Assembly: GCF_037031285.1 (NCBI RefSeq)
Contig: NZ_JAYEZO010000002.1
Coordinates: 1,178,001-1,242,000, forward strand
From: Halobellus sp. LT62
GTDB taxonomy: Archaea > Halobacteriota > Halobacteria > Halobacteriales > Haloferacaceae
DNA length: 64,000 nucleotides
Direction: 5' to 3'
This document shows, in pieces, positions 21,428-27,266 of the stretch. Both the position numbers and the translations under genes were made by a program. The notes below the pieces were generated by a model. That model was given only the letters and a program-made list of their open reading frames with translations, searched no databases and was not told the origin of the DNA. Within the stretch, counting starts at the first letter, position 1. Every line of letters starts with the position of its first letter.

Positions 21428-22654
21428 TCAGTCGCCGTAGCGGGAGTCGTCTTCGGGGCGCTGCTCCCGCGGGAACCACGCGAGCTCGTGGTCCGCGTCC
21501 AGTTCGAGATCGACCGGGCCGGCATTGGGGACGTCCTCGTCGTGGTTGTGCATGCACTGGATCGACTCCCCAGTTTCCAATTCGACCTCGTAGAGGAACG
21601 TCGGACCCAGATACCGCCGGGCGACGACGCGCCCGCAACTGGATTCGACGCCCTCGCAGTCGAGCGACCGGACGCTCACGTCGTCCGGGCGGACGAGCAG
21701 GTCGATTCGCGTGTGATCGTACTCCGGGGCGAGCCCGTGGATCTGCTCGCGCGGGACCGTCCCGAGATCGGTCTCGACGACGTCGCCGGAGACGTAGCCG
21801 GGGACGAAGCTGGCGTATCCTAAGAAGGCGGCGACGAACCGGGATTCGGGGTGCTGGAAGACGCCCTCGGGCTCGCCGATCTGCTCGATCTGGCCGTCGT
21901 TCATCACGGCGACGCGGTCGGAGATCGACAGCGCCTCCTCTTGGTCGTGCGTCACGGAGACGGCCGTCACGCCGGTCTCCTTGATGATCCGTCGGACCTC
22001 CTCGCGCATCTCCACGCGGAGGTCGACGTCGAGGTTCGAGAACGGCTCGTCGAGCAAGAGGATCTCGGGTTCGGGCGCGAGTGAGCGCGCGAGGGCGACG
22101 CGTTGCTGTTGACCGCCGGAGAGTTGATCCGGGTAGCTCTCGCCCTGATCGTCGAGGTCGACCAGTTCGAGGAGTTCGTCGACGCGCTCGCCGACCTCGT
22201 CGTCGGGACGGTCTTTCAGCCCGAAGGCGACGTTCTCGCGCGCCGTGAGGTGGGGAAAGAGCGCGAACTCTTGGAAGACGACGCCGACGCCGCGCTCCTC
22301 CGGCGGCACGAACGTCGACCCCGACACCGACGTCCCGTTCAGCCGCACCGCGCCGGTGTCCGGGCGTTCGAGCCCCGCGACGAGCCGCAGCGTCGTCGTC
22401 TTCCCGCAGCCCGAGGGCCCCAACAGGGTCAGAATCTCGCCCTCGCGGACCGAAAGCGAGAGGTCCTGCACGACCAGTTCGGAGCCGTAGGACTTGCCGA
22501 GCCCGTCCAGTTCGAGCACGACGTCGGCGTCGGCGTCGACAGTCGACGGGCCGGGGAGCGACTCCGTGTCCGCTCGTCGTTCGCCGTCGTCGTCGCCGGT
22601 TTCGATCCGTTGCTCCGCGTCCGACTCCACCGCAGCCTGTGTGCTATTTGACAT
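21428..22654 (-). CDS. ABC transporter ATP-binding protein, Fe3+/thiamine/spermidine (FbpC/PotA-like) type
   Basis: A 408-aa ATPase. A disordered acidic leader (1-45) precedes the nucleotide-binding domain with Walker A GPSGCGKT, Q-loop FQEFALFPH, signature LSGGQQQR, Walker B ILLLDEP and the switch His (VTHDQEEAL). A C-terminal TOBE-like domain carries VRPDDVSVRS. The start overlaps the permease stop by 11 nt, so translation is coupled. With the adjacent permease and substrate-binding lipoprotein it forms an importer, most likely for ferric iron given the iron-box-like operator upstream of the operon. Confidence 0.85.
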   Translation of the reverse strand: MSNSTQAAVESDAEQRIETGDDDGERRADTESLPGPSTVDADADVVLELDGLGKSYGSELVVQDLSLSVREGEILTLLGPSGCGKTTTLRLVAGLERPDTGAVRLNGTSVSGSTFVPPEERGVGVVFQEFALFPHLTARENVAFGLKDRPDDEVGERVDELLELVDLDDQGESYPDQLSGGQQQRVALARSLAPEPEILLLDEPFSNLDVDLRVEMREEVRRIIKETGVTAVSVTHDQEEALSISDRVAVMNDGQIEQIGEPEGVFQHPESRFVAAFLGYASFVPGYVSGDVVETDLGTVPREQIHGLAPEYDHTRIDLLVRPDDVSVRSLDCEGVESSCGRVVARRYLGPTFLYEVELETGESIQCMHNHDEDVPNAGPVDLELDADHELAWFPREQRPEDDSRYGD

Positions 22655-24248
22655 CGTATCCCTCCTGTCTGAGTATCACGAGCATCGAGAGTCCAGAAAC
22701 GAACAACAAGACCAGCGCCGGAACCGCCGCCTGTCCGAAGTACCCCGATTCATACGCTGTCCAGATATGTGTGACCAGCGTGGTAAAACCCGACGGTCGC
22801 AAGAGCAGCGTCGCGGGCAGTTCCTTCATCGTCGTCAGGAACACGAGCGCCGCGCCGCCGAACAGCCCCGGCGCGACCAGCGGGAGCGTCACGTAGCGGA
22901 ACGCGCCCGCCGACGTCTGCCCGAGCGTGCGTGCGGCCTCCGGGAGCGCCGGGTCGACCGAGAGGAACGACGCCCGCAGCGACCCGACCGACTGGGGCAG
23001 AAAGCGGATCACGTACGCGAACACGAGGAGATACAGCGTCTGGTAGATCGGCGTCGCGTACTGGCTGCCGAAGAACACCAAAGCGAGGCCGAGCACGACG
23101 CCGGGGACCGCGTAGCCGACGTAGCTGACCCGCTCGAACGCCGCCGGGAGCAGTCCGTCGTATCGCGCCGAGAGGTACGCGATCGGAATCCCGGCCACGA
23201 CGGCGACGGCGGCGGCCGCGGCGGCGACGGTGACGGAGTTCAGCGCGTAGGCCCACTCGAAGGCGAGCGACTGGTTCACCGTCGCCGAGGCGGTGCCGAG
23301 CCACGAGAGGAGGATCGCCAGCGGGACGACGAGCGCGAGTCCCGCGACGAGCGCCGCGAACCCCATCGCGGGATAGCGCCACGCCCCGAGCGAGACCGCG
23401 GCGCGGGAGCGCCCCCCGGCGGTCGTCCGCTCCTCGCCGCGAACGCGGGACTCGAGCCACAGGATGAAGAGCGTCACCGCGACCAGTTGTAAGGAAAGCA
23501 GCGTGGCGGTGTCGCGGCCGAACGTCCCGAACTCGACGAAGATGACCCGCGTGAACACGTCGTAGCGCATAATCGACGGCGTGCCGAAGTCCGCGAGGAC
23601 GTACAGCCCCGACAGCAGCGCGCCCGCGGCGACCGCGGGGCGGATCTGCGGGACCGTCACCCGCCGGAACGTCTCCCAGCGATCGTGTTCGAGCGTCCGC
23701 GCCGCGTCGATCAGCGTCGTGTCCATCGACTTCAGCGCCGCTCGCGCGGTGATGTACACGTACGGATAGGTGTACAGCGTGAGGATCAACACGGTGCCTT
23801 CGAGGCCGTAGATCTCGGGGATGCGCTCGACGCCGATCGGGGCCAGAAGCCGTTGAAAGCTCCCCTGTGGACCGAACGCCGAGACGAACGCGAACGCCCC
23901 GACGTAACTCGGAATAACCAAGGGAAGAGAGACGATGATCGTCCAGAACCGGCGGAACGGCAAGTCGGTTCTGACCGTCAGATACGCGAGTGGGACGCCG
24001 ATGAGTACGCAGGCGGCCGTCGTCAGTGCGACGAGGAACGCACTGTTGAGAAATACCTCGAGCGTCGTCGGCCGCGTGAGAAGCGCAATCGCCTCGTCGA
24101 CGCCGACTTCCAAACCCGTCTTGACGAGCCACAGGACCGGCAGCAACACCGCGGCCGCCACTGCGGCCGCCGCGACCGACACGCCGAGCGGGAGTTCCGA
24201 CTCTTCGCCGCCCTCGTCGTCCGCCGTCGTCCGGTGCTCTGTGGCCAT
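22644..24248 (-). CDS. ABC transporter permease, FbpB-like double-length
   Basis: A 534-aa membrane protein with about 12 hydrophobic segments in two homologous halves, as in FbpB-type permeases that are fused dimers. Each half holds an EAA-like loop for ATPase contact (IDAARTLEHDRWETFRRV and PEAARTLGQTSAGAFRYV). It lies 36 nt after the substrate-binding protein gene and overlaps the ATPase gene. It moves the substrate across the membrane; the operator upstream of the operon argues for ferric iron. Confidence 0.85.
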   Translation of the reverse strand: MATEHRTTADDEGGEESELPLGVSVAAAAVAAAVLLPVLWLVKTGLEVGVDEAIALLTRPTTLEVFLNSAFLVALTTAACVLIGVPLAYLTVRTDLPFRRFWTIIVSLPLVIPSYVGAFAFVSAFGPQGSFQRLLAPIGVERIPEIYGLEGTVLILTLYTYPYVYITARAALKSMDTTLIDAARTLEHDRWETFRRVTVPQIRPAVAAGALLSGLYVLADFGTPSIMRYDVFTRVIFVEFGTFGRDTATLLSLQLVAVTLFILWLESRVRGEERTTAGGRSRAAVSLGAWRYPAMGFAALVAGLALVVPLAILLSWLGTASATVNQSLAFEWAYALNSVTVAAAAAAVAVVAGIPIAYLSARYDGLLPAAFERVSYVGYAVPGVVLGLALVFFGSQYATPIYQTLYLLVFAYVIRFLPQSVGSLRASFLSVDPALPEAARTLGQTSAGAFRYVTLPLVAPGLFGGAALVFLTTMKELPATLLLRPSGFTTLVTHIWTAYESGYFGQAAVPALVLLFVSGLSMLVILRQEGYDVK

Positions 24249-24284: not shown

Positions 24285-25463
24285 TCAGAGGACGCCCGTC
24301 TCCCGGAGGAGTTCGATCGTCGTCTCGAGGTCTGACAGTTGTGAGAGGTTTAACTCCTCGGGCGGGTTCAACTCGTCGATCGTCGGGAGCCGACCGATGG
24401 GCTCGACTTCCGGGACGAGCGGGTACTCGAACGTGGTCCGCGCGAAGTAGTCCTGCGCCTCAGCCGAGAGCAGGTGCCGGACGAAGTTGGCCGCGAGCGT
24501 CGAGTCCTCGGCGGTGTCGAGGACGCACGCCCCGGCGACGTTGAACACCGCGCCCGCGTCGTTCTGTGTAAACGCGGTCGAAAGCGGGGCCGACTGGCCG
24601 CGTCGAGCGAGCACGCGCTGGATGTAGTAGTGGTTCGTCAGTCCGGCCGAGATCTCGCCGTCGGCGACCGCCCGGGCGATCTGGAACTCGTCGCCGTACT
24701 GGCTCACCCCGAGGTCTTGCATTCCGGACAGCCACTCGCGGGTGGCGTCTTCGCCTTCGAGGACCCGCATCGCCGTGATGAACGCTTGGAACGAGGAGTA
24801 CGTCGGGGCCCAGCCGAGTTCGCCCTCGAATTCGGCGGTCTCCGGGAACGCCATAATGCTGTCGGGGATGTCGGACTCGGAGAACGTGTCCGTGTTGTAC
24901 GGAACCGACCGCGCGCGCCCGGAGGTACCAATCCACGAGTCGTCGGGGGATCGGAAGCTCTGGGGGACGAAGTCGAGGACCTCCTGTGGGAGCGGCTGCG
25001 TCCGGTTCATATCCGCGAGCGCGCCCAGTGCGCCCGCGTTCACGGAGTAGAAGACGTCGGCGGGGCTGTTGTCGCCCTCGATGTCGATCTGGTTGACGAG
25101 CTCCGCGGCGGAGTTGTACTGCGGGCGGACCGTGAAGTTCGGATACAGGTCCTCGATGAAGCCGACGAGCTCACCGACGAGCGCCTCTCCCCGCCCCGAG
25201 TACAGCGTCAGCTCGCCTTCGAGGTCGGGCATCTCCGACATCGGGACGCCCGAGAGCTCGCGACTGCCGAAGGGCGACTGCCCGGATCCGATCTGTTCGG
25301 GACCGCTTTCGCCTCCGGCGGATCCGCCGTCTTCGGTTTCGGTCTCGGTTCCGTTTCCGTTATCTCCCGGCGTGTTACACCCTGCGACTCCGACGATGCC
25401 CGCGGCGGCCGCCGCCTGCAGGAACCGACGGCGCGTTCGGGGCGTTCCGTGTTGTTCGTTCAT
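24285..25463 (-). CDS. Iron-type ABC substrate-binding lipoprotein (FbpA-like), Tat exported
   Basis: A 392-aa protein. The N-terminus has TRRRFLQ (Tat motif, residues 10-16), a hydrophobic stretch and a lipobox ending GVAGC with Cys29 as the probable lipid anchor. A Gly/Glu-rich linker follows, then a type II binding-protein fold (LTLYSGRGEALVGELVGF near residue 85), the opening typical of ferric-binding FbpA homologues. First gene of the operon. Its promoter carries an iron-box-like palindrome between TATA and start, so repression by a DtxR-type regulator under iron-replete conditions is expected. Confidence 0.85.
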   Translation of the reverse strand: MNEQHGTPRTRRRFLQAAAAAGIVGVAGCNTPGDNGNGTETETEDGGSAGGESGPEQIGSGQSPFGSRELSGVPMSEMPDLEGELTLYSGRGEALVGELVGFIEDLYPNFTVRPQYNSAAELVNQIDIEGDNSPADVFYSVNAGALGALADMNRTQPLPQEVLDFVPQSFRSPDDSWIGTSGRARSVPYNTDTFSESDIPDSIMAFPETAEFEGELGWAPTYSSFQAFITAMRVLEGEDATREWLSGMQDLGVSQYGDEFQIARAVADGEISAGLTNHYYIQRVLARRGQSAPLSTAFTQNDAGAVFNVAGACVLDTAEDSTLAANFVRHLLSAEAQDYFARTTFEYPLVPEVEPIGRLPTIDELNPPEELNLSQLSDLETTIELLRETGVL

Positions 25464-25485: not shown

Positions 25486-25486
25486 A

Positions 25487-25494
25487 TTTATATA
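25487..25494 (-). promoter_or_regulatory. TATA box of the iron ABC operon
   Basis: Minus strand TATATAAA, centred about 27 nt before the ATG at 25463. It indicates a leaderless transcript that starts within or beside operator 1. Confidence 0.75.
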
Positions 25495-25508
25495 CCTTCC
25501 GATACGGT

Positions 25509-26678
25509 TCAGTCGTCCGCGACCGCGACCTCGGGTTCCCGACCTTCCACCGCGCCCAGTTCGTCGAGACAGGCGAGCCAGTCGAGCCAGTACTCGCCGC
25601 AGTGGTTCAAGAACGCGCCGTTGTTCCACTCGGAGAAGTCACCGTCCGCGAACGCGCGTGCCATCACCTGTGCGGCCTCGGTCCACGAGTCGGCGTCGTC
25701 GCCGACGGCGTCGACGACCTCCCAGACGTGCTCGTTGAGTTCGAGCCCCGGGACCTCGTTGTTCAGGTCGTCGAACGTCGGTCGCGGGGCCTTGTTGTGC
25801 TCACAGAGGGGGTAGCCGTTGACGACGTCCTTCTCGAGGAGGTCGGCCGCGCGCTTGAGGAACACGCCCGACCAGATGTCGTCGAACCGGCCGACGTCCC
25901 AGTCGTTGTCGTCCATCGGGAGCTGGTAGAACGCGGGGATCACCTCGCGCTCGAAGGCGAGGTTCATCGAGCAGACCGTGAGGTACTGTCCGGGCTCGGC
26001 GACGAAGTCGCCCTCGAAGTCCGCCTTCTCCGTCCGCGTCTGCGCCTGCCCCTGCAGATCGCCGTCCATCAGGATTCGGACCGCGTCGAGGTCCGGAACG
26101 TTCGTCCACAGTCCTTGCGAGGCGACGACGTCGGTGAGCTTCTCCGTGCCAACCTCGACGTCCTCGTCCATCGCGGAGTACGGATACCCGCGGGGGTACA
26201 GGCCGTGCTCGTCGGCGTGCTGATAGAGGACGTTCACCCAGCGCTCGTCGCTCGCGACGGACTCGACCTCGTCGGTCCGGTCGAGGTTCGCCATATGGCG
26301 GCCGAAGAAGTCCCACTCGTCGTGCGGCAGCGTGTCGTCGTCGATGAACACGCCGCGCTCGAAGCGCGGGTTATTCCACATATACAGCAGTCCGAAGCTG
26401 GTCTGGGCGTGCGATGCCGCCGGAACGAGGTGCGAGAACGACGAGAGACCGTGTTTCTCGAACCACTCCTCGCGTCGCGATCCGTCGTAGACCGCGCCGT
26501 CGACGCCTTCTTCGTCCAGCATCTCCTCCATTGCATCGACGTCACAGAAGTTCTCCGTGACGAGGAGCACGAACAGTCGATCGAGGTCGAACCCGTGCCC
26601 GCGGGCGTTCTCGAAGTACTCCCGCATACACTCGTACTCGCGGATTGTCGGTACCACGACGCAGACGTCTTGGCTCAT
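25509..26678 (-). CDS. RGP/GT75-like protein (annotated in relatives as alpha-1,4-glucan-protein synthase)
   Basis: A 389-aa soluble protein from the ATG at 26678; a TTG 3 codons upstream is less likely. It starts MSQDVCVVVPTIREYECMREY and has an acidic DDDT motif near residue 120 (GVFIDDDTLP), the nucleotide-sugar site of reversibly glycosylated polypeptides/UDP-arabinopyranose mutases (GT75). No membrane segments. It ends 44 nt before the iron ABC operon start, in the same direction but with its own promoter. That promoter holds a near-identical iron box, so it is probably iron-regulated. Substrate and role are unknown. Confidence 0.7.
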   Translation of the reverse strand: MSQDVCVVVPTIREYECMREYFENARGHGFDLDRLFVLLVTENFCDVDAMEEMLDEEGVDGAVYDGSRREEWFEKHGLSSFSHLVPAASHAQTSFGLLYMWNNPRFERGVFIDDDTLPHDEWDFFGRHMANLDRTDEVESVASDERWVNVLYQHADEHGLYPRGYPYSAMDEDVEVGTEKLTDVVASQGLWTNVPDLDAVRILMDGDLQGQAQTRTEKADFEGDFVAEPGQYLTVCSMNLAFEREVIPAFYQLPMDDNDWDVGRFDDIWSGVFLKRAADLLEKDVVNGYPLCEHNKAPRPTFDDLNNEVPGLELNEHVWEVVDAVGDDADSWTEAAQVMARAFADGDFSEWNNGAFLNHCGEYWLDWLACLDELGAVEGREPEVAVADD

Positions 26679-26690
26679 CGACTGCAACTA

Positions 26691-26706
26691 TTTAGGCAAG
26701 CCTAAA
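26691..26706. promoter_or_regulatory. DtxR/IdeR-type iron box, operator 2
   Basis: TTTAGGCAAGCCTAAA has two perfect 7-bp arms around AA. It begins 13 nt before the ATG at 26678 and overlaps the likely TATA region (minus strand CTTTTAGG). It is nearly the same as operator 1 about 1.2 kb away. Confidence 0.75.
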
Positions 26707-26783: not shown

Positions 26784-27266
26784 GTGACGCAAACGGACGC
26801 AATAGCGGACCTCGCTGTCGGGGTTCGCGCGGGTCTCCTGCTCACACTCTCGGCCGCCGTCGCGTGGCTCTCGGGAGCGCCGGCCGTCTTCCCGAGCCTC
26901 GGTCCCACGGCGTTCGTCCTCTCGACCGCCCGGAGCGGACCGACCGGCCGCGTCGTCGTCGGGGGGCACGCCATCGGCGTCGCCGCCGGGCTGGGAACCT
27001 ATCTCGCGATCTCCGCGGTCGTTCCCGTTCCCGACTCGCCGCTGCTGTTCGATCCGCCGTGGCTGGCGCTGAGCGGGATTCTCGCCGTCGTGCTCACGAC
27101 GACCGGTATGCGGTTAACTAATCTTGTCCACCCGCCCGCGTGCGCGACCACCCTCATCGTCGCGCTGGGACTGCTCGAACCGCTCCCCGCTGTCGCCGTC
27201 GTGATCCCCGCGGTGGTTTCGCTGCTCGTCGTCGACCGCGCGCTCGACGGCTCGCTGCGGCGCTGA
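26784..27266 (+). CDS. HPP family membrane protein
   Basis: A 160-aa protein with four or five hydrophobic segments, started at GTG 26784. It shows both HPP-family marks: PSLGPTAFVL near residue 37 and HPPACATTLIVALG near residue 115. HPP proteins of some bacteria and plants transport nitrite across membranes; that function is known for a few members only. It is divergent from the RGP-like gene, 105 nt apart, so operator 2 could also affect it. Confidence 0.85.
   Translation: MTQTDAIADLAVGVRAGLLLTLSAAVAWLSGAPAVFPSLGPTAFVLSTARSGPTGRVVVGGHAIGVAAGLGTYLAISAVVPVPDSPLLFDPPWLALSGILAVVLTTTGMRLTNLVHPPACATTLIVALGLLEPLPAVAVVIPAVVSLLVVDRALDGSLRR

Follow-up and report, generated by a model that had tools for sequence, protein, structure and literature searches.

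A putative haloarchaeal iron-responsive regulon joining ferric import to a three-enzyme glycosylation pathway

The DNA analysed here is a stretch of 64 kb from Halobellus sp. LT62, in the following called the window. It carries a gene for an RGP/GT75-like protein (RGP), next to which the genes of a ferric-binding protein (SBP), an ABC permease, an ABC ATPase and a GT-C glycosyltransferase are tightly packed on the minus strand, with the GT-C gene being the last one of this iron operon (Table 1). NCBIfam models matching the ATPase include that of a ferric ABC ATPase, all of them staying below their cut-offs. The open reading frame of RGP extends from 25509 to 26687 on the minus strand, with a TTG at 26687. 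The likelier start is the ATG at 26678, and therefore the centre of the palindromic box lies about 20 bp upstream of the start. The nearest named relative of RGP, with 92% identity, is found in Halobellus rufus.

Table 1. Position of the genes and promoter features of the RGP locus in the window.
Feature	Position	Strand	Basis or remark
GT-C membrane glycosyltransferase, 762 residues	19136..21424	-	PMT_2 (PF13231) and DUF7846 (PF25230)
ABC ATPase with TOBE_2 domain	21428..22654	-	Domain match; NCBIfam
Fused two-domain ABC permease	22644..24248	-	BPD_transp_1, two stretches
Tat-lipobox ferric-binding protein (SBP)	24285..25463	-	SBP_bac_6; TAT_signal_seq; ferric-binding profile match
Box TTTAGGCTTACCTAAA	25470..25485	.	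Between TATA-like element and SBP gene start
TATA-like element TATATAAA (minus strand) of the SBP promoter, within the stretch given	25486..25500	-	Sequence and consensus column
RGP/GT75-like gene	25509..26678	-	PF03214, MtdL fold and conserved residues
Box TTTAGGCAAGCCTAAA	26691..26706	.	Over RGP core promoter; kept at 118/130 distinct loci

A search of the window for TTTAGGN4CCTAAA with up to two mismatches revealed two sites only, TTTAGGCAAGCCTAAA in front of RGP and TTTAGGCTTACCTAAA in front of SBP, compared with an average of 0.11 in dinucleotide shuffles. A preliminary description, made without database searches, had claimed a perfect TTTAGGC/GCCTAAA palindrome over the RGP promoter and a nearly identical box at the adjacent iron ABC operon. 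Both claims were confirmed, with the qualification that only the seven-base arms of the RGP box are perfect, its two central bases (AA) not being self-complementary and breaking the symmetry. Over the whole 3.23-Mb genome, TTTNGGN4CCNAAA was found at 10 places (0 for the reversed control) and TTAGGN4CCTAA at 7 (2 for the reversed control). Three of the ten sites are owned by the RGP and SBP genes and by the gene of a GT2 glycosyltransferase outside the window, and another box of the genome adjoins a FhuD-like lipoprotein gene, recognised by eye; the boxes L253 and L256 show no evident metal link. We take TTTAGG-N4-CCTAAA to be the motif of the haloarchaeal DtxR/FerR regulator. The DtxR-type repressor domain PF02742 has three matches above its cut-off in this genome, and three such regulators are also described for Haloferax volcanii (PMC11349517).

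Some further boxes of this genome were inspected by eye. Boxes L254, L255, and L257 lie near Dps-, flavin oxidoreductase-, and ZIP transporter-like genes, one of them between a lipoprotein-like open reading frame and a MiaB-like radical SAM gene. A perfect box (L251, G000 C1:4662) is located just ahead of the start codon of an uncharacterised protein beginning MSDVESAIREL, whose gene is convergent with a ribonucleotide reductase-like gene.

The conservation of the boxes was followed in two overlapping sets of RGP loci from the Halobacteriales, one of 60 loci and the other of 80 named loci; these 140 loci encode 130 distinct RGP proteins. With up to two mismatches and not more than 60 bp upstream, the box was found at 118 of the 130 distinct loci versus 16 of 2,533 random windows, which came from the same loci and may land on SBP boxes. 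The best upstream match showed no mismatch at 95 loci, one at 20, two at 3, three at 1, and five or more at 11, and the box mostly lies 19–28 bp before the start. The strict form TTAGGN4CCTAA occurs between -70 and +20 of the RGP start at 114/140 loci, and eight scrambled palindromes gave 0/140 each; TTTAGGN4CCTAAA was counted at 219 sites in 40 genomes of the order, versus 3 for the control. Many of the 26 strict-form misses, chiefly from Haloferax and Halogranum, carry the left arm TTTTTGG, a one-base change providing a better TATA-like run. The consensus, built from the 115 loci with no more than one mismatch, shows hardly any variation in the arms and a variable spacer of four bases, and it is inferred from this consensus that the left arm sits at the expected TATA position of a leaderless transcript. 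In front of SBP, the box was found with at most one mismatch at 109 of 123 distinct loci, and the consensus reveals a tatAaa-like column just upstream of it. The palindrome missing upstream of orthologues had been proposed as a refutation of the preliminary reading; on checking, the box recurs across the order.

Two groups deviate from this pattern. In the Halocatena group (L058, L093, L128, L129), RGP is directly followed by the GT-C gene, SBP is absent and the RGP box has decayed; of the genomes of this group, G227 lacks an SBP match at 1e-50, and G283 does not appear among the SBP matches. A genus known here from MAGs (L061/L156, L084/L177) has kept the SBP box and lost the RGP box. The pathway does not depend on iron control, since the Halocatena group retains RGP and GT-C in the absence of SBP and boxes.

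On the other side of the RGP box, an HPP-family membrane protein is encoded on the opposite strand (26784–27266, plus strand), its start being 78 bp away from the box. This gene was considered as the owner of the box and rejected, since a homologue lies beside RGP in only 2 of 60 loci and the box stays with RGP.

The nature of the importer was assessed by a profile of 28 binding proteins, whose best match in the PDB is the ferric-binding protein 7w3w (6.2e-83). At E ≤ 1e-10, the profile matches 28 entries, 27 of which bear iron-binding, iron transport or iron-system names (including YfuA and sfuA), the remaining one being named only “extracellular solute-binding protein”. Because 27 of its 28 solved relatives bear iron names, we regard the adjacent operon as a ferric importer; the paired tyrosines Y279 and Y280 are invariant in the 28 sequences. 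The earlier reading of the palindrome as an iron box is supported by this ferric-type importer next door, with direct proof of an iron response still missing. Under denitrification, Haloferax mediterranei shows a decrease of siderophore genes and, with them, of an iron(III) binding-protein gene (PMC11218638), which was not mapped to this locus. Alternatively, the box could serve a manganese or general-metal regulator of the DtxR family, matching Mn-dependent glycosyltransferases to the metal status. GT75 enzymes do need Mn2+ or Mg2+ (PMC9937993), one box of the genome precedes a gene reading like a ZIP transporter, and the DtxR family is known to include manganese regulators. We consider this explanation unlikely, however, as a ferric-binding protein is the partner conserved best, another box stands before the FhuD-like gene, and a ferR signal is stated to be present at the fhu operons of H. 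volcanii (PMC11349517).

RGP matches PF03214 with an E-value of 6.1e-15 and 55.7 bits (cut-off 23.8) over model positions 93–292, and this family was found in 40 of 294 sampled genomes of the phylum, all 40 belonging to the Halobacteriales. An AlphaFold model built from 58 sequences (pLDDT 86.7, pTM 0.88) displays a GT-A plus RGP core and helix fold. Structure comparison of the model gave MtdL with a Z-score of 35.5 (352 residues aligned) and OsUAM2 with 27.1, the next hits reaching 14.7 and below. The RGP/GT75-like identity claimed in the preliminary description is therefore supported by both family and fold, while mutase activity lacks direct proof. In all 131 aligned proteins (the 130 distinct ones and that of the window), DDD113-115, R163, R264, D267, and H294 are present, R163 being the equivalent of the autoglycosylated arginine and H294 that of the metal-binding histidine. 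Likewise, the equivalents of MtdL Asp109-111, Arg159, Asp195, Ser228, Arg257, Asp260, and His287 are invariant in 131/131. Other positions of MtdL are always replaced in these proteins, namely Asp87 by His, Gln229 by Met, Asn112 by Thr, Arg289 by Lys, and His292 by Arg.

Asp87 of MtdL contacts the sugar, and its variants D87N and D87S are inactive, though active plant enzymes carry Ser at this position (PMC9937993). With His in 131/131 proteins, RGP does not meet the Asp87 criterion of MtdL-type GDP-sugar mutases, and since its sugar pocket differs from that of MtdL at both Asp87 and Gln229, mutase activity is not assured. Replacement of Asp87 alone is no proof of inactivity, given the Ser of the plant enzymes, and the idea of an inactive pseudo-enzyme is disfavoured, the metal-binding and catalytic residues being invariant except for position 87 and a few phosphate-loop positions. 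While fold and residues are shown, neither mutase nor autoglycosylation activity is, and we infer from the sequence that RGP forms a GT75 subfamily of its own, the substrate of which cannot be specified.

Several relatives of RGP were observed in other settings. Genome G049 encodes a second, canonical UAM-like RGP (L178, E 1.1e-135) adjoining a GT4 glycosyltransferase-like open reading frame. Eight plasmid matches (H1–H8) place RGP on secondary replicons of seven Halobaculum and one Salarchaeum, where it is annotated as alpha-1 4-glucan-protein synthase, and three of these rows also name a solute-binding protein; a further match (H9) is a planctomycete plasmid encoding a 36% identical relative annotated as hypothetical. 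In Halobellus clavatus and H. rarus (L099, L101), the ferric-binding gene is separated from RGP by two inserted open reading frames with about 490 and 590 residues, the first appearing KaiC/RadA-like by eye.

The preliminary description did not see that RGP has two co-inherited partner glycosyltransferases, one of which carries the same box outside the window. The first is the GT-C protein, which matches PF13231 with 34.1 bits (cut-off 26.1). Its fold neighbours in Foldseek at E ≤ 0.001 include AglB, ArnT, and Emb, with modest TM-scores by query of 0.28 to 0.40, and a search of its profile against PDB sequences yielded no match at 0.01. The gene has no box of its own and lies downstream of RGP in 137/140 loci; in the other three (L111, L101, L159) the sequence ends before its expected place. 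Among 293 genomes, 218 encode both RGP and GT-C, 73 neither, and only two a single one of them (G175 and G133, with a completeness of 89% and 77%).

The second partner is the GT2 glycosyltransferase, whose gene adjoins the RGP locus in 65 of the 140 loci, always on the opposite strand. In this genome it occupies C2:1171056-1171733 and lies some 6.3 kb ahead of the window. The copy of L128 matches NF041391, a dolichyl-phosphate hexose transferase, with 398 bits (equivalog cut-off 375); that of our genome is 77% identical to it and was not scanned itself. GT2 is present in 221 of the 293 genomes, including all 219 with RGP as well as G133 and G152. For RGP, GT-C, and GT2 together, 218 genomes possess all three, 72 none, and 3 a partial set, using presence thresholds (E ≤ 1e-10 for RGP, 1e-60 for GT-C, and 1e-70 for GT2) that were fixed before each tally and are uncalibrated. 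RGP is strictly co-inherited with GT-C and GT2, and, as its presence varies inside 17 genera, this is not just a matter of deep ancestry; the mixed genera are a fairer argument than a Fisher test, which ignores shared ancestry. The importer is less tightly tied to RGP, SBP homologues being found in 52 of 74 RGP-negative genomes. A core link mainly between RGP and SBP was rejected on this ground, RGP and GT-C disagreeing in 2 of 293 genomes only.

The co-inheritance of these enzymes also bears on a different reading of RGP, namely as a glycogenin-like protein that primes an internal glucan and would connect iron starvation with carbon storage. Both the annotation of the plasmid-borne copies and the self-glycosylation of GT75 proteins (PMC9937993) would fit. 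Against it, the fact that RGP is strictly co-inherited with a GT-C membrane enzyme and a dolichyl-phosphate transferase points to a lipid-carried, extracytoplasmic product, which leaves this reading with very little likelihood.

The box is also found at the GT2 gene. From 58 distinct copies linked to the RGP locus, five were excluded due to too little upstream sequence, and 44 of the remaining 53 carry the box with at most one mismatch within 200 bp, mostly around -40. Three of the nine misses belong to the Halocatena group, and some of the other six are probably start-site errors. Of 40 further copies, hand-picked to include ones away from the RGP locus and with a few genomes repeated, 36 carry it within 250 bp, again with at most one mismatch; the copy of this genome, with the box at -25, is among them. 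This count has no usable random-window control, since windows from the same short loci contain the box. The four misses are G283 (Halocatena), G121, G111, and G133, the last three from the MAG genus without RGP box, and no RGP was found in G133. It is therefore shown that RGP and GT2 have the box in common also where they are unlinked, and that both are without it in the same lineages; no other argument of ours speaks as strongly for a functional box and for a joint role of these genes. One might still argue that only the importer is a target of iron and that RGP is a passenger, its box being inherited from a local promoter duplication, as RGP adjoins SBP and their boxes are similar. Yet the promoter layouts of RGP and SBP differ, the arms of the box are kept while the spacer varies, and the unlinked GT2 partner bears the same box, so that we regard this explanation as very improbable.

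Taken together, we slightly favour the view that an iron-responsive regulon of haloarchaea has its hub at this locus and joins ferric import to a glycosylation pathway of three enzymes. Under iron-replete conditions, a Fe2+-loaded repressor of the DtxR family (Idr/SirR/TroR type) would occupy the TTTAGG-N4-CCTAAA boxes and block initiation, with the left arm of the RGP box overlapping the expected TATA and the SBP box lying between TATA and start codon. A drop in iron would lead to their derepression. The FbpA-type importer would bring in Fe3+, and RGP, as a Mn/Mg-type GT75 enzyme, would supply an activated sugar, most simply an NDP-furanose. GT2 would load a sugar on dolichyl phosphate, and GT-C, encoded in the same operon as the importer, would pass it on to an acceptor on the outer side of the membrane, possibly the ferric-binding lipoprotein or some other molecule of the surface. 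Iron repression, the furanose step, the sequence of the reactions, the identity of sugar and acceptor, and the benefit are all inferred, there being no expression, binding or enzyme data.

In an alternative scheme, the same regulon holds and the pathway targets lipids or exopolysaccharide instead of proteins, e.g., an iron-binding or envelope-altering acidic polymer. Loading of dolichyl phosphate by a haloarchaeal GT2 has been shown for a different enzyme, AepG of Haloarcula hispanica, which makes DolP-glucuronic acid for exopolysaccharide and not for S-layer glycans (PMC9943897), and GT-C folds include the lipid-modifying ArnT. However, AepG has two C-terminal transmembrane domains and belongs to a different cluster (PMC9943897), and for these reasons it is not evidently the same enzyme as our GT2. 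This alternative remains a serious one, though we consider it less likely than not.

A bolder form of the regulon hypothesis, which we put forward only as a possibility, is a dedicated, iron-switched extracytoplasmic glycosylation, with GT75 providing an NDP-furanose, GT2 a furanose-dolichyl phosphate, and GT-C modifying a surface protein such as the ferric-binding lipoprotein. If this holds true, glycosylation in archaea would here be under the control of iron, and the three enzymes would be candidates for the O-glycosylation pathway of archaea, which is still called elusive (PMC8241124). A three-enzyme set inherited as a unit with a common iron box indicates which genes should be deleted and under which condition to look, and it hints at a remodelling of the archaeal cell surface under iron shortage, with a bearing on iron capture and on surface recognition.

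In the open-access literature searched (RGP/GT75 in haloarchaea; iron and glycosylation), neither a box-controlled set of GT75, GT2, and GT-C nor a pairing of iron with RGP was found, and a literature search for Halobacterium locus tags found none. Among the most affected H. volcanii proteins in section 3.3 of PMC11349517, supplementary tables excluded, none is identifiable as one of these enzymes. Family, box, and importer are of known kinds, and a prior prediction of these targets is not excluded, e.g., in regulon papers outside our literature search (Leyn and Rodionov 2015 and three papers in Nucleic Acids Research).

Compared with known systems, RGP shares the whole fold, the DDD motif and the residue equivalents listed above with MtdL, the GT75 GDP-L-sugar pyranose/furanose mutase of Marinactinospora, but is only 23% identical in the structural alignment and lies in an iron locus, whereas MtdL stems from an antibiotic cluster. 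The plant UDP-arabinopyranose mutase/RGP OsUAM2 (8cid) is a member of the same family and, like the canonical archaeal copy L178, has Met and Lys at two phosphate-binding positions; it differs in its longer loops and in a Ser at the base-selectivity position, as in MtdL, where L178 aligns an Asp. The mycobacterial decaprenylphosphoryl-arabinofuranose pathway contains fold neighbours of GT-C (Emb, and AftD only at E above 0.001), with no common sequence shown with the haloarchaeal enzymes. Its logic is known to be alike, a furanose on polyprenyl phosphate being used by GT-C enzymes, with a different origin of the furanose. The importer resembles the FbpA/HitA ferric ABC importers in the match of its binding-protein profile to 7w3w, but its operon ends in a GT-C glycosyltransferase. 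Finally, the palindromic box beside iron genes and the presence of the regulators agree with the DtxR/FerR/Idr iron regulons of haloarchaea, while the targets here also include glycosylation enzymes.
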